From Candidatus Cloacimonadota bacterium (GTDB taxonomy: Bacteria; Cloacimonadota; Cloacimonadia; Cloacimonadales; JAMOQM01), in the NCBI GenBank assembly GCA_027064005.1, contig JAMOQM010000051.1, positions 1 to 51,736 of the forward strand: a stretch of DNA of 51,736 nucleotides. The letters run 5' to 3'. Made by a program: the position numbers and the translations under genes. Shown here piece by piece: positions 15,479 through 50,350 of this stretch. The notes below the pieces were generated by a model. That model saw only the letters and a list, made by a program, of their open reading frames with translations. It was not told the origin of the DNA and ran no database searches. Numbering within the stretch: position 1 is the stretch's first letter; every line of letters starts with the position of its first letter.

Positions 15479-17134
15479 CTATTTATGGTAAATATTTTTA
15501 ATTGCATCAATATCGACATCTTCTTTTTTATATTTGACATTAAAGAATTTCTCAAAATATTCAAAGATATAATTACTATCTATCAAAACATCCAAAATAC
15601 TAGAATCAATTTCATTATTGCTTGCCATTTTTGCCAAAATTGTTAAAGTTTCCATGATTGTCTTACCTTTTTTATAAGGTCTATCCGTAGCAGTTAAGGC
15701 TTCAAAAATATCGGCGATTGCAATAATCCTAGCCGGAAAAGGAATTTGCTCTGCCGTATAGTGAAAAGGATAACCTTTACCATTCAATTTTTCATGATGT
15801 AAAGAAGCATAAATCGGGATATTTTTGTATTTTTTCGGGAAAGTTAATGAGGATAAAATATTGTAGCTGGTTTGAGCGTGTTCCTGCATTTTCCCAATTT
15901 CATCTTTAGTGAGCGTACCTTTCCTTACCGATAATTTTTCATATTCATCATCTGTTAAAATCCGATATTCTGTATCATTAGAGAAATATCTAAATTTATA
16001 TATTTCCTCTAATTCTTGAACAAATTCATCGCTCATAAATTCAGCTCCGCTGTTCATTATATTAATAAAAACTTTAAATATTTCAATCTCTTTCACTATT
16101 TTATCAAATTTTTTTAAAGGTTCATTTTTCAGTTCAGCAATTTCTTTATCCTTTTTCACAATATTGATAATTAAGTTACACCTTTCTTCAACAACAGAGA
16201 TTCCATCAATAACCGCCTCTAACTTTGTTGATTTATCCATAATAAATTCCGGAGTAATTATTTTCCCAAAATCATGCATTAAAGCAGCTAATCGAATTTC
16301 TTGAATTTCATCTTGAGAAAATGTTTTATTTGGGAAAATCTTTTTATCATTTTGAATAACGTTCACTAATTCTTTGGAAATAACCCCAACTCTTTGGATA
16401 TGAGCACCGGTATATTTTGATTTCCGGTCAATAGCCTGAGCAATAGATGAAACAAATTGAAGAATAAGACTTTCCAACCCTTTAATTAATTGGCGGTTGT
16501 TTAAAGCAATTCCAGCTAAAGAAGCCAATGAGTTTATGACATGAATATCTTCATTGGAAAAAACATCAATTTCGCCATTTTCATTTATTGGATTTATCAA
16601 TTGAATTACACCAATTACATCATTTTCATGACTTTTTAGCGGTAAAGCCAATACCGATTTCGTTCTATAATTATTTTTTTTATCGTATCGTTTTGTTCCG
16701 GTAGTTACAAATTGAGTTTGTTTATAAATATCATCATAACACTTAATTTCTCCGGTATGAGCAACATAAGCAGCTTGAGTCTTCATCAAAGGAGAAGAAT
16801 TCTCGTCAAATAAAGGAATTGGCATCCAATTCAAATTTCCTTTCAAACGAGAAAGATTGATCTCTAAAGTTTTGTTATAGACAACTTCAAAATTCAAATA
16901 TTTTTTATTCTCAGAAAGCGTATAAATTGTTGCTCCATCAGCATTTGTAAAAAATAATGATTCCTGAAGAATCATATCAAAAATATCATCCAATTCTTTT
17001 TTTGAGGAAAGTGAAAGTCCAATTTCAGTCAATCTATCAATATGTTTAAATTGTCGTTTTGAAAAAGTATTTATTTCTTTGACTACATTATTTAGCATCA
17101 GATTCAGTTTTTTATTACTACTCAGATTAATCAT
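15479..17134 (-). CDS. GAF domain / HD-GYP domain protein (putative c-di-GMP phosphodiesterase)
   Basis: About 551 aa. The GAF domain (about 40-215) senses an unknown ligand; the HD-GYP domain (about 225-520) is predicted to hydrolyse cyclic di-GMP. The HD pair is in LMHDFGK near residue 290, and the HHEKLNGKGYP motif near 455 is the full HD-GYP signature, followed by IIAIADIFEALTATDRPYK. An insertion of about 100 residues between the HD and GYP parts is longer than usual. ATG 17134 is preferred to ATG 17146, because GGAG lies between the two and serves as ribosome binding site. It is first in the minus-strand envelope cluster, a position that would let c-di-GMP signalling be tied to surface-glycan synthesis. 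Confidence 0.85.
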   Translation of the reverse strand: MINLSSNKKLNLMLNNVVKEINTFSKRQFKHIDRLTEIGLSLSSKKELDDIFDMILQESLFFTNADGATIYTLSENKKYLNFEVVYNKTLEINLSRLKGNLNWMPIPLFDENSSPLMKTQAAYVAHTGEIKCYDDIYKQTQFVTTGTKRYDKKNNYRTKSVLALPLKSHENDVIGVIQLINPINENGEIDVFSNEDIHVINSLASLAGIALNNRQLIKGLESLILQFVSSIAQAIDRKSKYTGAHIQRVGVISKELVNVIQNDKKIFPNKTFSQDEIQEIRLAALMHDFGKIITPEFIMDKSTKLEAVIDGISVVEERCNLIINIVKKDKEIAELKNEPLKKFDKIVKEIEIFKVFINIMNSGAEFMSDEFVQELEEIYKFRYFSNDTEYRILTDDEYEKLSVRKGTLTKDEIGKMQEHAQTSYNILSSLTFPKKYKNIPIYASLHHEKLNGKGYPFHYTAEQIPFPARIIAIADIFEALTATDRPYKKGKTIMETLTILAKMASNNEIDSSILDVLIDSNYIFEYFEKFFNVKYKKEDVDIDAIKNIYHK

Positions 17135-17389: not shown

Positions 17390-18169
17390 ATGAATTACAA
17401 TGATACTGATTTTATTAAAGATGTTTCCGAATTAACAAAAATTAAATTTGTCGGAACTGATAAAGATGCTCCGAAAAAACGTAAAAATAAAAGGAATCAA
17501 CATCCCAAAAAAGAAAAGAAAGAATCATTTGCTTCTGAATTAGAAGAAGACTTAAATAAAGAAACCGGCGAAAAAAATAATCTAAATATCGGAATTAAAG
17601 TTCTTGAAAAAAGAAATTCGGAACTATCGGCATTATCGGATATGATTAGGAATGAAAATTATGACGAAAATTTGATTCAAAGGAAAATCTTAAAAAGTGA
17701 TAGAGATTTATACGAAATAAGTTCCGATTCACCGTTATTACCTAATGAAAAAGATTTAGAAAAAGATGACTTGGAAAAATTACAGCAATTAGATAGATAT
17801 TACGCACGTTATGAAAAGCTTACAAATGAACAAAAAGAAACAATTATTAAAGAAGATTTTGACCTATTAAATAAACTATTCTCCGAAAAAAACACAATTT
17901 TAGCAAAAATACAAACCCTACAAAATACAATCAATTACGAAAAAATTGCCCACTCTGAAGAAAAAAAAATTAAAGCAAACATCATCCTTTCCGATATTCA
18001 TAATAGGATGAACGGAGTTATTCAAATCGAAGACGAAAATAACTCCAGATTATGTTCTTTAAAAAATGAAATGAAAGTTGCTCTGGGAAAAATCCATAAA
18101 GGTTCCCAAATGATTGCTAAGTACGGCAATAAACATATTTCATCTCATTTTATAGATAAAAAAACATAG
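17390..18169 (+). CDS. FlgN-like coiled-coil protein upstream of flagellins
   Basis: A 259-aa hydrophilic, highly charged protein without signal peptide. Residues 20-60 are very lysine- and glutamate-rich and probably disordered. The second half (about 120-250) is predicted helical: a block LNKLFSEKNTILAKIQTLQ, then IQIEDENNSRLCSLKNEMKVALGKI and a short tail. That pattern (two or three long helices, an acidic D-x-N/E-N stretch, then K..V...L..I..G) resembles FlgN/FliT-type export chaperones, which bind hook-associated proteins or flagellin in the cytoplasm. There are only 44 bp to the first flagellin and no terminator between, so co-transcription is likely. A ribosome binding site (TTAGGAG) precedes ATG 17390. 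The family call is tentative; the gene itself is secure. Confidence 0.55.
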   Translation: MNYNDTDFIKDVSELTKIKFVGTDKDAPKKRKNKRNQHPKKEKKESFASELEEDLNKETGEKNNLNIGIKVLEKRNSELSALSDMIRNENYDENLIQRKILKSDRDLYEISSDSPLLPNEKDLEKDDLEKLQQLDRYYARYEKLTNEQKETIIKEDFDLLNKLFSEKNTILAKIQTLQNTINYEKIAHSEEKKIKANIILSDIHNRMNGVIQIEDENNSRLCSLKNEMKVALGKIHKGSQMIAKYGNKHISSHFIDKKT

Positions 18170-18181
18170 ATTTTTTTAAAA

Positions 18182-18210
18182 GGCAAGGATGCCGAATTTT
18201 TCAAGGAGGA
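18182..18210 (+). promoter_or_regulatory. CsrA-like hairpin plus GGA in Shine-Dalgarno, flagellin 1 leader
   Basis: GGC-AAGGAT-GCC (18182-18193) forms a 3-bp stem with hexaloop AAGGAT and contains CAAGGATG, the core CsrA recognition sequence. A second GGA-containing element, CAAGGAGGA (18202-18210), is the Shine-Dalgarno. Two GGA sites, one of them covering the ribosome binding site, is the arrangement of CsrA-repressed flagellin mRNA in Bacillus. Binding is inferred. Confidence 0.65.
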
Positions 18211-18213
18211 AAA

Positions 18214-19188
18214 ATGTCATTGAATGTTCATAATAATATGAGCGCACAAATCGCTTCGTATTATCTTCAGAAAAACTACAACAGCATGGGAAAATCCATC
18301 GAACATTTATCTTCAGGATTAAGAATTAACAACGCCGGTGATGATCCTCAAGGAAAAGCCTTAAGCGAAATGTTAAAAAGTAGAGCAAATGTTTTAGATA
18401 AAGGCATAACAAATATCCAAATGGCAATTTCAGTTTCACAAACAGCAGAAGGTTCTTTAAGTATAATTGATGAAAAACTAATCCGAATGAAAGAACTCGC
18501 AGAACAATCAGCAACCGGAACTTATAACAATACTCAGCGATTAATGTTAAATTCAGAATTCAATGAAATGGCTGCTGAAATCGATAGAATCGCCAATAGC
18601 ACAAATTTATCCGGATTAAAATTATTGGATGGTAATATTTCAACTTCAACAAAATATACTGCAAATAACGGTTGGTACAAAGCTGATTCCGATTCTTATT
18701 CGACCGGAGATTCAAAAGATGTTTATGCCCATTTTACTAAAAACGAAAAATTAAAAGTACATTTCGGACAAACAAACAGCAGTGCCGAAGATTACTACTA
18801 TATTCATTTAAAAGATATGACAACAAATGGCTTGTTTCACGATTTTATTGATCCAACTGATTCAACCAAAAATACAATTTCAAAAGTCATGGCAATTTCT
18901 TCATCAGCTTCAGCTCAATTAGCTCTTGAACAAATTAATTCTGCCATGGTTTATAAGGAAGAAGAGCGTTCCCATTTGGGAGCAATTCAAAATCGTTTAG
19001 AAACTTCGTTAAATCATTTAGAAATAACTAAAGAACAAGTCGAAAGAACCGACTCTATATTATCGGATGTAGATGTGGCGACAGAAATGTCGAATTTCAC
19101 AAAATTCCAAGTTCTTACTCAAAGTGCAACGTCGATGTTGGCTCAGGCAAACGCCCTGCCACAGATGGTTTTAAAACTTTTAGCTTAA
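18214..19188 (+). CDS. Divergent flagellin, 324 aa
   Basis: Filament protein with conserved D0/D1 ends and a short variable centre. The N-terminus SLNVHNNMSAQIASYYLQKNYNSM and the C-terminus ATEMSNFTKFQVLTQSATSMLAQANALPQMVLKLL are flagellin signatures. It shares the same central feature as its two paralogues (KVHFGQTNSSAEDYYYIHLKDM). Several positions that are near-invariant in flagellins are changed: GDDPQGKALSEML replaces (A)DDAAGLAI.E.M, and ITNIQMAISVSQTAEGSL replaces RNAQDGIS.IQTAEGAL. This suggests a minor or positional filament subunit and not the bulk flagellin. It has a strong ribosome binding site CAAGGAGG. It is translated from a leader with a CsrA-like hairpin. Confidence 0.88.
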   Translation: MSLNVHNNMSAQIASYYLQKNYNSMGKSIEHLSSGLRINNAGDDPQGKALSEMLKSRANVLDKGITNIQMAISVSQTAEGSLSIIDEKLIRMKELAEQSATGTYNNTQRLMLNSEFNEMAAEIDRIANSTNLSGLKLLDGNISTSTKYTANNGWYKADSDSYSTGDSKDVYAHFTKNEKLKVHFGQTNSSAEDYYYIHLKDMTTNGLFHDFIDPTDSTKNTISKVMAISSSASAQLALEQINSAMVYKEEERSHLGAIQNRLETSLNHLEITKEQVERTDSILSDVDVATEMSNFTKFQVLTQSATSMLAQANALPQMVLKLLA

Positions 19189-19283
19189 GAATTATTTAGA
19201 CCTTTATACAAGAACATACACGTGCATAGCCAAAAATTAGGTTAGAAGGCTCTCGTATTATTCATAATTAATACAAAAAATAA

Positions 19284-19320
19284 ATGCAAGGATGCATAAA
19301 AAAAACAATTCAGGGAGGAT
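19284..19320 (+). promoter_or_regulatory. CsrA-like hairpin plus GGA in Shine-Dalgarno, flagellin 2 leader
   Basis: ATGC-AAGGAT-GCAT (19284-19297) has the same AAGGAT loop as the other two flagellin leaders, but the stem is ATGC/GCAT in place of GGC/GCC, so bases on both sides have changed together. The Shine-Dalgarno CAGGGAGGA (19311-19319) supplies the second GGA site before ATG 19324. Confidence 0.65.
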
Positions 19321-19323
19321 ATT

Positions 19324-20313
19324 ATGTCTTTAGTAATTAACCATAACCTTATGTCTATGAACACTGCGAGAAATTTAAACAATTCGTATAATAGTTTGGC
19401 AAAATCCGTACAAAGATTATCTACAGGTATGAGAATCAATTCTGCTGCCGATGATGCCGCCGGATTGGCTATTAGAGAAGGAATGAGATCTGATATTTCA
19501 GCACTGAATCAAGGTGTAAGAAATGCTCAAGATGGTATTTCGATGATTCAAACTGCAGAAGGAGCTCTCGGGGTAGTTGATGAAAAACTAATTCGTATGA
19601 AAGAGTTGGCAGAACAAGCTGCAACCGGTACTTATACAAACGCTCAAAGATTAATCATTCATTCGGAATTTTCTGCAATGGCTGCAGAAATAGACAGAAT
19701 CGCAACTTCCACAGATTTCAACGGTGTAAAATTATTGGACGGTAACGTTTCCGTAGCCGGAAATGGTGGTCAATGGACAGCCAATAATACATGGAGTGCA
19801 ACAGAAGGATTGTGGACAAATAGTAGCGGATGGAAAGAAGTTACCGGCAATGCAACCAATGGCAATATTACAGGTGGAGTGAAAATTCACTTTGGTGCCG
19901 GAAATAATCGTGCCGAAGATTATTACTTTGTTCGTTTAGGAGATATGAGAACGACTTCATTATTCGCAAGTAGCGGAACAACTGTCAGCTCAGCAACTAG
20001 TGCAGCCAATACAATTGCGGTATCAACACAACATGCAGCTCAAATAGCTCTTGAACAATTGAATACAGCAATGACAAGAAAAGAAAACATGCGAGCATCA
20101 CTTGGTGCTGTTCAAAATCGTCTTGAAAACACTATTTCGAACATTTCAATTCAGTCTGAGAATTTACAAGCTTCCGAGTCTCGTATTTCTGATGTTGATG
20201 TAGCAACAGAAATGACGAATTTCACAAGAAATCAAGTATTGACTCAATCAGCTGTAGCAATGCTTTCCCAAGCAAACTCATTACCTCAAATGGCATTGAG
20301 ATTACTCGGATAA
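19324..20313 (+). CDS. Flagellin, 329 aa
   Basis: Major-type flagellin. The N-terminal D0/D1 has SLVINHNLMSMNTARNLN, RLSTGMRINSAADDAAGLAI and RNAQDGISMIQTAEGALG; the C-terminal D1/D0 has TRKENMRASLGAVQNRLENTI, DVDVATEMTNFTRNQVLTQSA and SLPQMALRLLG. The central domain is short (about 100 aa, with NNRAEDYYFVRLGDM), so the filament should have little surface decoration, as in the small spirochaete FlaB-type flagellins. It is followed by a strong terminator at 20340. The protein is about 93% identical to flagellin 3. Secretion is expected through the flagellar type III apparatus with the FlgN-like gene product or another chaperone assisting. Confidence 0.93.
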   Translation: MSLVINHNLMSMNTARNLNNSYNSLAKSVQRLSTGMRINSAADDAAGLAIREGMRSDISALNQGVRNAQDGISMIQTAEGALGVVDEKLIRMKELAEQAATGTYTNAQRLIIHSEFSAMAAEIDRIATSTDFNGVKLLDGNVSVAGNGGQWTANNTWSATEGLWTNSSGWKEVTGNATNGNITGGVKIHFGAGNNRAEDYYFVRLGDMRTTSLFASSGTTVSSATSAANTIAVSTQHAAQIALEQLNTAMTRKENMRASLGAVQNRLENTISNISIQSENLQASESRISDVDVATEMTNFTRNQVLTQSAVAMLSQANSLPQMALRLLG

Positions 20314-20339
20314 ATTAGAAAAACAGCATTTAATTATAC

Positions 20340-20368
20340 AGGGGAATAAAAAATTCCCCTTTTTAATA
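20340..20368 (+). terminator. Rho-independent terminator after flagellin 2
   Basis: Stem 20340-20347 (AGGGGAAT) pairs with 20353-20360 (ATTCCCCT), 8 bp, with loop AAAAA and then TTTTAATA. It separates flagellin 2 from flagellin 3. Confidence 0.88.
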
Positions 20369-20413
20369 TAAACAATTTAACAATTATGAAAACGAATACT
20401 ACGAAAGTCAGTA

Positions 20414-20422
20414 TGTTATAAT
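20414..20422 (+). promoter_or_regulatory. Extended -10 promoter for flagellin 3
   Basis: TGTTATAAT is a perfect extended -10 element (TG-N-TATAAT), 54 bp after the terminator of flagellin 2. No good -35 is needed for this class. Transcription from about 20429 would give a leader of about 130 nt. No sigma-28-like element was found. Confidence 0.55.
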
Positions 20423-20504
20423 TTTATGACGTGTAGGTTAGTTCCTCATTTTTTTGGTTCGGTAAAATAGTCTGGTAAAACAATAGAAATGCTGAGATGA
20501 TAAA

Positions 20505-20558
20505 TTAAGGATTAGTCCTTAACTTGGCAAGGATGCCACTAACCGATCAAGGAGGAAT
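20505..20558 (+). promoter_or_regulatory. Two leader hairpins, one CsrA-like, flagellin 3
   Basis: The first hairpin is TTAAGGA-TTAG-TCCTTAA (20505-20522). The second, TGGC-AAGGAT-GCCA (20525-20538), is the shared AAGGAT-loop hairpin with a 4-bp stem containing CAAGGATG. The Shine-Dalgarno CAAGGAGGA (20548-20556) precedes ATG 20560. The first hairpin has no counterpart in the other flagellin leaders. Confidence 0.65.
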
Positions 20559-20559
20559 T

Positions 20560-21549
20560 ATGTCACTCGTAATAAACCACAATATGATGGCCATGAATTC
20601 AGCAAGAAACTTAAACAAGTCTTATAACAGTTTGTCTAGGTCAGTTCAACGCTTATCAACAGGAATGAGAATCAATTCGGCAGCAGATGATGCAGCAGGA
20701 TTGGCAATTCGTGAAGGTATGCGTTCGGATATCGCGTCATTGAATCAAGGTGTAAGAAATGCTCAAGACGGTATTTCATTGATTCAGACGGCAGAAGGTG
20801 CACTCGGTGTTGTTGATGAAAAACTCATTCGTATGAAAGAGTTGGCTGAACAAGCAGCAACCGGTACCTATACTAATGCTCAGAGATTAATTATCCATTC
20901 TGAATTTTCTGCAATGGCTGCAGAAATTGACAGAATCGCAACTTCAACGGATTTTAACGGTGTTAAGTTGTTAAACGGTAATGTTTCCGTAGCAGGTAGT
21001 GGAGGTAGTTGGACAACCAACAATACATGGAGTGCAACTGAAGGAATGTGGACAAATAGCAGCGGATGGAAAGAAGCTAACGGTACTGCAGCCAATGGAA
21101 ACATAAAAGGTGGAGTAAAAATTCACTTTGGAGCAGGAAATAACCGTGCAGAAGATTACTATTTCGTAAGAATTGGCGATATGAGAACAACATCATTATT
21201 TGCAGCAACCGGAACAGCTGTTAGTTCGGCAACTTCAGCGGCAAATACAATTGCAGTTTCAACTCAACATGCAGCTCAAATGGCTCTTGAACAATTGAAT
21301 ACGGCAATGACAAGAAAAGAGAACATGCGTGCTTCTCTCGGTGCTGTTCAAAATCGTCTTGAAAACACTATTTCAAACATTTCGATTCAGTCTGAAAATT
21401 TACAAGCTTCCGAGTCTCGTATTTCTGATGTTGATGTAGCAACAGAAATGACGAATTTCACAAGGAATCAAGTATTGACTCAGTCTGCTGTAGCAATGCT
21501 TTCACAAGCAAACTCGTTACCACAAATGGCACTTAGACTTATCGGATAG
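20560..21549 (+). CDS. Flagellin, 329 aa (paralogue of flagellin 2)
   Basis: Major-type flagellin with complete D0/D1 ends (SLVINHNMMAMNSARNLN; STGMRINSAADDAAGLAI; ATEMTNFTRNQVLTQSA). An in-frame TTG at 20524 extends the frame, but ATG 20560 is the start: it has a strong ribosome binding site, aligns with both paralogues, and the extra codons consist of the leader hairpin. It differs from flagellin 2 mainly in a few central residues. Synonymous sites are well diverged over the 5' two thirds, yet the last 200 bp are nearly identical, which points to gene conversion. It has its own extended -10 promoter, so it can be expressed separately from flagellins 1 and 2. Confidence 0.93.
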   Translation: MSLVINHNMMAMNSARNLNKSYNSLSRSVQRLSTGMRINSAADDAAGLAIREGMRSDIASLNQGVRNAQDGISLIQTAEGALGVVDEKLIRMKELAEQAATGTYTNAQRLIIHSEFSAMAAEIDRIATSTDFNGVKLLNGNVSVAGSGGSWTTNNTWSATEGMWTNSSGWKEANGTAANGNIKGGVKIHFGAGNNRAEDYYFVRIGDMRTTSLFAATGTAVSSATSAANTIAVSTQHAAQMALEQLNTAMTRKENMRASLGAVQNRLENTISNISIQSENLQASESRISDVDVATEMTNFTRNQVLTQSAVAMLSQANSLPQMALRLIG

Positions 21550-21640: not shown

Positions 21641-21669
21641 TTGACAAAAAACTATTCGGCGAGTAAATT
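21641..21669 (+). promoter_or_regulatory. Sigma-70-type promoter for a candidate small RNA
   Basis: Perfect -35 TTGACA at 21641-21646, a 17-bp spacer and -10 TAAATT at 21664-21669 (4 of 6). No open frame with a ribosome binding site follows on this strand before the terminator at 21766. Confidence 0.5.
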
Positions 21670-21675
21670 AAGATA

Positions 21676-21797
21676 AAGAAAACGAAGTAAATGTGATCTT
21701 GGCAAATCTACTGTGGCAATGTCATAGGGAACTATGATGTTGAGAGTGCTAGGCTAACCGAACCAGATGGGTAGGTACAAATCTGCCCATCATTTTT
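21676..21797 (+). ncRNA. Candidate structured small RNA or orphan riboswitch-like element
   Basis: About 120 nt between a promoter and a terminator and without coding signs. A hairpin at 21717-21742 has an 11-bp stem (two G-U pairs) closed by the GNRA tetraloop GGAA. An outer helix can form between 21696-21702 (ATCTTGG, one bulged T) and 21763-21768 (CCAGAT), leaving single-stranded joins CAAATCTACTGTGG and AGAGTGCTAGGCTAACCGAA. The outer helix shares three bases with the 5' arm of the terminator. I could not match it to tmRNA, SRP RNA, RNase P, 6S or a known riboswitch class by eye. It could instead be the 3' UTR of flagellin 3. Confidence 0.4.
21766..21797 (+). terminator. Terminator of the candidate small RNA
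   Basis: GATGGGTAG (21766-21774) pairs with CTGCCCATC (21783-21791), 9 bp with one wobble, loop GTACAAAT, followed by ATTTTTAAA. The T-run is on the plus strand side only. Confidence 0.75.
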
Positions 21798-48519: not shown

Positions 48520-48876
48520 ATGGAACATTTAACAGCAGATACTTTTAAAGAAAAAGTATTTAATTATGAAAAAAATAAAGATTGGACTTTTGAAGGAAAT
48601 ATCCCTTGTATTATTGATTTTTACGCTGATTGGTGCGGACCTTGTAAAATGGTAGCACCTGTTTTAGAAGAATTATCAAAAGAATATGAAGGTAAAGTAA
48701 ATATTTACAAAGTTGACACTGAAGCACAACAAGAATTGGCCGGACTTTTTGGCATTAGAAGTATTCCTTCAATTCTTTTTGTTCCAATGGGTGAACAACC
48801 TCAAATGGCAATGGGTGCTCTTCCAAAAGAATCTATTGAAGATGCAATCAAAAACGTTCTTAAAGTTGAAAAATAA
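48520..48876 (+). CDS. trxA: Thioredoxin
   Basis: A 118-aa cytoplasmic disulfide reductase. The catalytic site is FYADWCGPCKMVAPVLEEL (WCGPC), and the conserved cis-proline is in IRSIPSILFV. It is about 10 residues longer than E. coli TrxA, at the N-terminus. It starts 84 bp after pta behind a 13-bp AT hairpin and has TTAGGAG as ribosome binding site. The stop is 1 bp from the convergent ComEC-like gene, and transcription from the left is expected to end at the terminator at 48896. No thioredoxin reductase gene is in the window. Confidence 0.9.
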   Translation: MEHLTADTFKEKVFNYEKNKDWTFEGNIPCIIDFYADWCGPCKMVAPVLEELSKEYEGKVNIYKVDTEAQQELAGLFGIRSIPSILFVPMGEQPQMAMGALPKESIEDAIKNVLKVEK

Positions 48877-48877
48877 G

Positions 48878-50350
48878 CTAATTTGAATTATTTTCAAAAA
48901 CCCGTTTCGGCGGGTTTTTTTGTTTTTTAAGCAATATAGCAATTCCAAATAATAAAAATAATCCCATCATAAATATTGGCTTTCTGTAATTCATAACTTC
49001 ATATTTAAAAGGCATTGAACTTAATTTAATTACCACCATTTTAAAGAAAAACATCAAACTATAAAAAGCCGATTGATAGACATTTAAGATGAATTGGAAA
49101 TTCGGGAGAGCTAAAATCAAAAGAGCTGTTGAAAGAATTATCCCGAAAAAAGGTATTCCGAAAATATTCGCAATAATCCCATTCAAATTAAATTGTCCGA
49201 AATTATAAATAGTAATCGGTGATAAAAATAAGGTGAGAATTGCACTTGTTTGAATTATTTCGAGAAAGTTTATCAAAATATTTAGAATCTTATTTTCATG
49301 AGATTTGAATTTGAAAGGGATAAAATTAATGAGGACAATTACAGCGGTAAATGACATTTGAAATCCAACCGAGAATATTTCTTTGGGATTTATAATTGTG
49401 ATTATGAGAAAAGCAATGGCGATAATTTGATTTTTATTTATCGGTCTTTCAAGAATTTTAGAGATATAAAAAACGATAATCATTATTGATGCTCTGGTTA
49501 CGGAAGCACTCCAATTGCATATTGCTGCATAAAAAATCAACAATATTATTGAAGCGATTCTGGCGTAATTTCTATTCGGAAAGATTATTTTGAAAAAAAT
49601 GTAAAAGATAAAAGAAATCATTCCAACATGTAAACCACTGACTGCAAGTAAATGACTCATCCCGGAATTTTGGAGAATTTTTTTCCAAAATCTGATTCTT
49701 CCTTTATCTCCGGTAATAATTGCTTTTACGAATTCTGAATTTTTACCAAATCTTTCTTTAATCCTATATTTAAGAGTTTCTTTTAGTTTTTGAACCCAAT
49801 TTTTGAAGTAGTTATTTTTATGAGAAATCAAAACAATTGGAGTAATATTTTCGGCAATAGCTTCAATATCTTGATTCTGAAGATATTTTATTTGAGATGG
49901 TTTTTTGCAATATTTCTTTAAGTTTTTAACTCTAAAAATTGCTTGGATAAAGTCACCGTTTTTTAAAAATTGGTTATCAGTTTCTAAATAAATTTTCCCT
50001 TCGGCTTTACAGCCGGCAATTTCCAATATTTTTGCTTTGTATTTTAATGAATGATTTTTGATGATAGGAAAAGAATCTATTTCTAATATTATTTTTTGAG
50101 TTATCTCATCTTTGTTTTTAAGAATATTTGAAATAGAAATTTCAGACTTTGGAATTCCAACTCGTAAACCGCCTAAAATAAAAATCAAAATAAGAATTGT
50201 TATCTTTCTGAATCTTTTATAAATCAGAAAAATACTAAAAGCAATAAACAAAACAATTAGGATATAAAAATTTACTAATTTACCACTTAGAATACCGAAT
50301 CCCCAAAAAATTGCCGGTAAAACTAAAGGTGATGGCAATTCCTTTTCCAC
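48878..50350 (-). CDS. ComEC/Rec2-type competence channel protein
   Basis: A 490-aa integral membrane protein. An N-terminal region with several hydrophobic spans and a soluble beta-rich OB-like segment (about 90-160, KNKDEITQKIILEIDSF) is followed by the Competence domain: GDKGRIRFWKKILQNSGMSHLLAVSGLHVGMISFIFYIFFKI is the ComEC signature (the S-G-x-x-H-L/I-LAVSGLHVG), with about eight more spans. ComEC moves single-stranded DNA across the inner membrane. The C-terminal metallo-beta-lactamase-like domain of long ComEC proteins is absent. The last codons, including PPKRV, are formed by the bidirectional terminator. The Mut7-C gene lies 15 bp upstream, so they share an operon. Confidence 0.82.
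   Translation of the reverse strand: MEKELPSPLVLPAIFWGFGILSGKLVNFYILIVLFIAFSIFLIYKRFRKITILILIFILGGLRVGIPKSEISISNILKNKDEITQKIILEIDSFPIIKNHSLKYKAKILEIAGCKAEGKIYLETDNQFLKNGDFIQAIFRVKNLKKYCKKPSQIKYLQNQDIEAIAENITPIVLISHKNNYFKNWVQKLKETLKYRIKERFGKNSEFVKAIITGDKGRIRFWKKILQNSGMSHLLAVSGLHVGMISFIFYIFFKIIFPNRNYARIASIILLIFYAAICNWSASVTRASIMIIVFYISKILERPINKNQIIAIAFLIITIINPKEIFSVGFQMSFTAVIVLINFIPFKFKSHENKILNILINFLEIIQTSAILTLFLSPITIYNFGQFNLNGIIANIFGIPFFGIILSTALLILALPNFQFILNVYQSAFYSLMFFFKMVVIKLSSMPFKYEVMNYRKPIFMMGLFLLFGIAILLKKQKNPPKRVFENNSN
48896..48919. terminator. Bidirectional terminator overlapping the ComEC-like 3' coding end
   Basis: AAAAACCCG (48896-48904) pairs with CGGGTTTTT (48911-48919) around TTTCGG. 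The plus strand has TTTTTTT after the GC stem (for trxA); the minus strand has TTTTTG. It sits 16 bp before the stop codon of the convergent ComEC-like gene, inside its reading frame. Confidence 0.88.

Follow-up and report, generated by a model that had tools for sequence, protein, structure and literature searches.

Flagellin array and leader hairpins in the window

We analysed a 51,736-nucleotide stretch of DNA (hereafter the window), which is contig C51 of a 2.4-Mb draft genome and carries three flagellin genes, flagellins 1, 2 and 3, head to tail on its plus strand; the nearest named relatives of these flagellins are from Candidatus Cloacimonadota. Each of the three leaders contains a short hairpin resembling a binding site of CsrA, and a structured element 3' of the last gene, the array-end RNA, appears complementary to the leader of flagellin 3. 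A fourth flagellin lies elsewhere in the same genome (contig C73, start at 16817, locus L126). The genes and the leader features that concern CsrA are listed below, with CsrA site 1 as BS1 and the Shine-Dalgarno sequence as SD; the hairpins were read from the sequence.

18214..19188, plus strand: flagellin 1, 324 aa, Pfam Flagellin_N and Flagellin_C
19324..20313, plus strand: flagellin 2, 329 aa, Pfam Flagellin_N and Flagellin_C
20560..21549, plus strand: flagellin 3, 329 aa, Pfam Flagellin_N and Flagellin_C
18182..18193, plus strand: putative BS1 hairpin of flagellin 1, GGC-AAGGAT-GCC, of a class conserved in relatives
19284..19297, plus strand: putative BS1 hairpin of flagellin 2, ATGC-AAGGAT-GCAT
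20525..20538, plus strand: putative BS1 hairpin of flagellin 3, TGGC-AAGGAT-GCCA
18198..18213, plus strand: second hairpin of flagellin 1, with the SD as ANGGAG loop, TTTTC-AAGGAG-GAAAA, seen likewise in class A leaders of relatives
19312..19317, plus strand: ANGGAG at the SD of flagellin 2 (AGGGAG), candidate second CsrA site
20549-20554, plus strand: ANGGAG at the SD of flagellin 3, candidate second CsrA site

An initial annotation of the window had placed an AAGGAT-loop hairpin before each of the three flagellin starts, and all three are found at the positions given above, ending 20, 26 and 21 nt before the ATG of flagellins 1, 2 and 3, respectively (ATG at 18214, 19324 and 20560). It had also proposed that the SD supplies a second GGA, which holds for all three window leaders: their SDs, CAAGGAGG, CAGGGAGG and CAAGGAGG, all contain ANGGAG, at a GGA-to-GGA distance from BS1 of 18, 24 and 20 nt. 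The SD hairpin of flagellin 1 can be extended to 7 pairs across the start codon. Flagellin 4 has no BS1 hairpin, and its SD, GCGGAGG, contains no ANGGA. An extra hairpin of variable sequence stands 5' of BS1 in many leaders, those of flagellins 1–3 included (e.g. 20506-20523, TTAAGGATTAGTCCTTAA).

Leader hairpins are conserved beyond chance

The published rule for CsrA recognition is an ANGGAN hexaloop in a short stem, with RUACARGGAUGU as the SELEX consensus (PMC7652899). Genome-wide, the 8-mer CAAGGATG by itself shows no enrichment: it occurs 28 times and its reversed control 21 times, a count that we treated as background and did not use as evidence. What distinguishes the flagellin sites is their setting, since no others among the 28 copies have both a stem of 3 or more pairs and, just downstream, an SD with a start codon. 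The other 25 copies, considered as further CsrA leaders along the lines of a check suggested in the initial annotation, were rejected because none of them stands before an SD and a start. Similarly, three of the five genomic matches to the two-site pattern AAGGATG-N8-25-GGAGG belong to the flagellins; one of the other two lies antisense within pheS and one at a permease start without a hairpin, and both were discarded.

A comparison with the leaders of relatives, also suggested in the initial annotation, was made on 32 main flagellin leaders from eleven genomes of the order, with four flagellin-4-type leaders kept apart. An ANGGAN upstream of the SD was present in 30 of the 32 (shuffle mean 9.9), and in 14 it formed the loop of a stem of at least 3 pairs, compared with a shuffle mean of 0.35 and a maximum of 2. 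The SD itself was ANGGAG in 31/32. Covariation of the stems, proposed at first from the three window hairpins, shows there at only one or two compensating positions; the strong evidence comes from relatives, where BS1 pairs 2, 3 and 4 are maintained through GC, TA, AT and CG changes (p<0.0002, 0.001 and 0.003, respectively, against reshuffled arms). The second loop base of BS1 is free (A in 20, G in 5, T in 4 and C in 1), which fits the prediction of the ANGGA rule (PMC7652899). In the leaders of first-type flagellins (class A) the SD tends to occupy a hairpin loop, as it does in flagellin 1. The four flagellin-4-type leaders have neither ANGGAG at the SD nor a BS1 hairpin, and in G002_C343_23442, one of the leaders of downstream flagellins (class B), BS1 and the SD ANGGA have been lost together.

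csrA and fliW lie in one flagellar cluster

No csrA or fliW had been noted in the window and both were expected elsewhere. We found them in the same genome, on contig C88: csrA, present as a single copy (C88:4544, E 2.6e-21), and fliW (C88:6038, E 3.8e-39), in the gene order flgI-flgJ-flgN-like-flgK-csrA-flgL-fliW. The names flgI, flgJ, flgN, flgK and flgL come from reading the translations, and flgL was also matched by the flagellin model. The 87-aa CsrA has a long C-terminal tail and aligns over residues 2-79 with the CsrA chain of a solved structure (5dmb_D), while the best solved relative of FliW is the FliW chain of the same PDB entry (5dmb_A, E 2.4e-25). The C-terminal extension through which CsrA binds FliW is thus present, as judged from the range of the 5dmb_D alignment. 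Across the order, CsrA exceeded the cut-off in 11 of 107 genomes, 10 of which carry flagellin or flagellin-like genes. One CsrA match (C159:6648-6791) lies in a genome, G100, in which no flagellin was found.

Given the published ANGGAN rule and the leader of Campylobacter jejuni flaA, which has two ANGGA stem-loops, the second on the ribosome-binding site, and FliW as antagonist (PMC4894983), control by CsrA and FliW is, as far as sequence comparison can tell, the best supported reading of these leaders. The window hairpins are very probably CsrA sites, and a link of the flagellin leaders to FliW is likely. The hairpins are, in that sense, a new occurrence of an already known type of regulation. 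A CsrA dimer would grip the ANGGA loop of BS1 together with the SD ANGGA 18-24 nt downstream and so exclude ribosomes; FliW, encoded near csrA, would strip CsrA from the leader; and free flagellin would sequester FliW, closing a feedback loop as in Bacillus and Campylobacter. We infer CsrA binding, repression and FliW release in this organism from these comparisons. The proposal that several flagellins obey this switch is thereby supported for flagellins 1 to 3; flagellin 4 appears to fall outside it.

Certain features of the data count against this reading. The BS1 stem is weak or absent (0-1 pairs) in 9 of the 32 leaders, mainly of class B, and the hairpin is therefore not strictly kept; among the window leaders, a clear SD hairpin is found only in flagellin 1. 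The shuffles ignore the kinship of the leaders, and where a leader had several ANGGA the best stem was taken, a slight bias toward pairing.

AAGGA can pair with the 3' end of 16S rRNA, and an AAGGAT loop upstream of a real SD could on that account be a standby ribosome site, an SD-like sequence in a loop, instead of a CsrA site. We regard this as very improbable: in 10 of 30 cases the second loop base is not A, which spoils the SD likeness and fits ANGGA, and the flanking C/G and the covarying stem are retained. The flagellin-4 type and G002_C343_23442 moreover lack BS1 and the SD ANGGA jointly, as expected of two sites of one dimer, and the genome has both csrA and fliW. It is harder still to believe that the hairpins are due to chance or to the common descent of leaders duplicated within the array. 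The window offers only three stems, and the array arose by duplication, as the 92% identity of flagellins 2 and 3 indicates, but the stem sequences vary while pairing persists across many genera, and the leader DNA around the hairpins of flagellins 2 and 3 is dissimilar.

A conserved RNA at the end of the array is predicted to pair with flagellin leaders

The initial annotation was incomplete in that it missed a second, probably RNA-based, control of flagellin 3 and its counterparts in relatives. The features concerned are:

20340..20360, plus strand: terminator-like hairpin between flagellins 2 and 3
20417..20422, plus strand: possible extended -10 of flagellin 3, TG-T-TATAAT, called from sequence only
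20442..20462, plus strand: 5' strand of a predicted cis helix hiding the SD of flagellin 3 (TTCCTC ... TTGGTTCGG)
20454..20478, plus strand: site 1 of the flagellin 3 leader, predicted to pair with the array-end RNA
20479..20499, plus strand: site 2 of the flagellin 3 leader, predicted to pair with the array-end RNA
20543..20557, plus strand: 3' strand of the cis helix of flagellin 3, SD included (CCGATCAAGGAGGAA)
21641..21669, plus strand: candidate sigma-70-like promoter of the array-end RNA, TTGACA-17-TAAATT (10 of 12), by consensus match only
21690..21793, plus strand: array-end RNA, match to model R1, E 5.8e-19 (the window sequence is among the 8 from which the model was built)
21698..21715, plus strand: array-end RNA segment predicted to pair with leader site 2 (CTTGGCAAATCTACTGTG)
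21747..21766, plus strand: array-end RNA segment predicted to pair with leader site 1, containing AGGCTAACCGAACC
21766..21791, plus strand: 3' hairpin of the array-end RNA, followed by ATTTTT, terminator-like

With the extended -10 at this position, the RNA of flagellin 3 would start near 20429. The array-end RNA emerged from an alignment of eight genomes as a structured element of ~100 nt 3' of the array. Within it, AGGCTAACCGAACC is invariant in 8/8 genomes and an AATCTRCTGTG-like segment is also conserved; the tip of the P2 hairpin varies in sequence yet folds in every genome, and the 3' hairpin retains its pairs through changes on both sides. The R1 covariance model built from these eight genomes matched once in each of them and nowhere else among 125 genomes of the phylum, and the genomes with R1 are exactly those that have arrays of closely related flagellins. 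The element follows the last flagellin at a distance of 53-609 nt, in every case on the same strand. In two loci, L130 (G010) and L127 (G004), the stretch from the last flagellin to the array-end RNA contains degenerate flagellin starts and leader remnants, which points to growth and decay of the arrays.

Several identities were considered for this element and set aside. A known RNA or riboswitch was rejected as no Rfam family reached its gathering score, and nothing relevant appeared on the local stretch at E 10. A CsrA sponge was rejected by eye, there being no conserved ANGGA, and a small peptide because the spacing between the conserved segments ranges from 53 to 67 nt and the frame varies. 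When a repeat or a mobile element was considered, the leader motif TGGTTYGGTTAGCC had a single exact match in the genome, the complement of the array-end RNA itself, with near matches at background. A scan of viral contigs gave no further copies. TTGACA-17-TAAATT is the best plus-strand promoter match of its region, in which promoter-like matches are not above expectation (11, against 13.2 by shuffle).

The class B leaders share GGTTYGGTTAGCC and CACAGCAGAT, ~65-120 nt before the start, and the array-end element carries the reverse complements of both in antiparallel order. We computed pairing and opening energies from single-strand folding, on genomes that are drafts. When the window RNA was scanned against 10,298 stretches of 70 nt from the two strands of the 51.7-kb window, its best partner was the leader of flagellin 3 (-30.0 kcal/mol, z -11.3), the next unrelated stretch reaching -16.7, and the leader of flagellin 1 gave -7.6 kcal/mol. 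In relatives the RNAs paired at -7 to -15 with first-type leaders and at -15 to -33 with the counterparts of flagellin 3, with one exception among the latter (G004_C286_3945, -8.3). Pairing at site 1, located at about -95 to -119, had z values of -2 to -7.6, below -3 in most counterpart leaders, and cofolding gave a two-part duplex around an intact P2 hairpin in 11/11 leaders. At site 2, the RNAs of the window's own genome, of G002 (with one of two leaders) and of G003 pair best with the leaders of their own genome; the RNAs of the own genome and of G002 have A where others have G, and T in their leaders matches it. We take these co-changes as a modest sign of coevolution between RNA and leader, against which G010 shows no such own-genome preference. 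On these grounds the array-end RNA is quite probably conserved and genuinely complementary to flagellin leaders, and its gene, at the end of a flagellin array, seems to encode a small RNA not described before.

A second complementarity is offered as a lead. A stretch in the leader of flagellin 4, TAGTTCCC-GCATTGCCA, could pair with the P2 hairpin of the array-end RNA (-24.7 kcal/mol, null minimum -16.4); pairing with the flagellin-4-type leader is likewise strong in G004 (-25.1, null minimum near -17), but is marginal in G003 and not strong in G012.

The pairing RNA is predicted to free the Shine-Dalgarno sequence of flagellin 3

In computed folds of flagellin 3-type leaders, the strand to which the array-end RNA is predicted to bind also pairs in cis with the SD region, and this pairing is better between strands of one leader than between strands exchanged among leaders (p=0.011, n=12). 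The mean predicted cost of opening the SD is 8.9 kcal/mol in class B, compared with 4.5 in class A. With site 1 occupied it falls from 8.9 to 4.9 in class B and from 10.2 to 3.2 kcal/mol in flagellin 3, and blocking other stretches changes it on average by -1.1, compared with -3.8 for site 1. Because the paired strand hides the SD in cis, the array-end RNA is predicted to activate translation. The SD of flagellin 3 would be sequestered by the strand near -118 to -98; the array-end RNA would pair in two places, with this hiding strand and the next 20 nt, and free the SD, acting as a translational activator and making flagellin 3 output conditional on the RNA. For activation of flagellin 3 translation, as modelled here, we see a little better than an even chance. 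We infer the expression of the RNA, its pairing in the cell and the direction of its effect from these predictions.

A long duplex might instead recruit RNase III or lock the leader closed, so that the array-end RNA represses. Long bipartite duplexes are typical RNase III substrates, and cofolding does yield long bipartite duplexes with the leader. However, the SD is hidden in cis by the very strand that the RNA is predicted to bind, occupation of this strand lowers the predicted opening cost to about the class A level, and the duplex stops well upstream of the SD; repression, the main rival to activation, is accordingly the less expected outcome, with perhaps a minor share of the probability. 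We give rather less credence to the possibility that the element acts in cis, as the 3' end of flagellin mRNA or a riboswitch-like sensor, and matches the leader incidentally. Its cis P1 (UUGGC/GCUAA), the conserved joining segments and its closeness to the last stop codon in G008 and G020 would suit such a role, but two separate segments match the leader sites in the correct antiparallel order, the flagellin 3 leader ranks first of 10,298 stretches, and changes at site 2 accompany changes in the leaders of the same genome (own, G002 and G003). In addition, a terminator-like hairpin separates the own flagellin 3 from flagellin 2, and the RNA has a promoter-like site of its own.

Activation by the array-end RNA also has observations to contend with. 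The stretches adjoining site 1 open the SD about as well when blocked, which weakens specificity, and which is expected if the remainder of the cis strand lies in them. Among the flagellins of the window, flagellin 3 alone offers the RNA a convincing pairing site, the leader of flagellin 2 reaching -11.6. The putative promoter of the RNA rests on a match to the consensus in a single genome; an equally clear one was not seen by eye upstream of the RNA in most relatives. Finally, in G008 and G020 the RNA begins ~54 nt after the last flagellin and may derive from flagellin mRNA.

A proposed CsrA-FliW switch overlaid by an array-encoded RNA

The combined system would be a CsrA-FliW flagellin switch overlaid by an array-encoded pairing RNA. 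We hold the account as a whole, two-site CsrA leaders with release by FliW plus an array-end RNA activating flagellin 3, to be a probable one. Flagellins 2 and 3 are 92% identical as proteins and differ in their leaders, so an RNA acting on only one of them would choose the flagellin that is made. We lean slightly towards the more specific proposal of a new small RNA family at the 3' end of Cloacimonadota flagellin arrays that selects among near-identical flagellins, the first type being controlled by CsrA-FliW alone and the flagellin-3 type needing two-part pairing for translation with CsrA on top. If true, this would be a flagellin choice with two keys, FliW-CsrA and a pairing RNA, in bacteria for which a search of 40 genomes of the order gave no Hfq. 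Strong comparative evidence places the CsrA-FliW flagellin checkpoint in an uncultured phylum as well, where several paralogous flagellins are apparently under one switch while another appears exempt. Whether FliW and small RNAs jointly modulate CsrA in any species is listed as open in a review (PMC7652899); here, a single flagellin mRNA appears to be subject to both a FliW-type switch and a pairing RNA.

The closest known leader is that of Campylobacter jejuni flaA, which has the same anatomy as flagellin 1 and likewise shows compensatory changes between species (PMC4894983). In contrast to flaA, several flagellins of the array carry sites here, csrA and fliW lie in a flgK-csrA-flgL-fliW cluster, and a subset of leaders has a predicted long-range SD-hiding helix and a pairing RNA. 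The likeness to hag-CsrA-FliW of Bacillus subtilis lies in the two sites, one on the SD, and in csrA and fliW being adjacent in a flagellar cluster (PMC7652899, PMC6529632); one flagellin is under the switch there, whereas four flagellins are present here and one is apparently CsrA-exempt. Treponema denticola also has multiple flagellins, flaB1 and flaB2, with predicted CsrA sites near the SD, and fliW-csrA beside flgK-flgL, and the part of that report consulted does not describe hairpin conservation or an RNA partner for them (PMC9481697).

Among small RNAs, UhpU, MotR, FliX and FlgO of E. coli (PMC10578931) and CJnc230 and CJnc170 of C. jejuni (PMC11187230) similarly come from or beside flagellar genes and tune flagella, and CJnc230 has a promoter of its own downstream of flgE (PMC11187230). 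They differ in their targets: MotR and FliX pair inside coding sequences (PMC10578931) and CJnc230 represses the mRNAs of an anti-sigma factor and a regulator (PMC11187230), whereas the array-end RNA is predicted to pair with flagellin leaders of the same array. The mode of action predicted here, binding of the SD-hiding strand, is like that of another pair. In DsrA-rpoS, the SD is released when a small RNA base-pairs with its hiding strand. The system proposed here differs from DsrA-rpoS in the two-part pairing around an intact RNA hairpin, in RNA and target being neighbours, and in the added CsrA sites.

Other features of the window

A sub-threshold rsmX match at 48831-48920 on the plus strand (32 bits, gathering 56) consists mostly of a terminator (AAAAACCCGTTTCGGCGGGTTTTTT) and has no GGA repeats. 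Immediately 5' of flagellin 1, at 17390-18169 on the plus strand, lies a gene for a 259-aa protein without a Pfam match. Frames with similar ends (SHFIDTTK, SHFINTKK) stand 5' of first-type flagellins in relatives, and the product is probably a conserved flagellin-associated protein.

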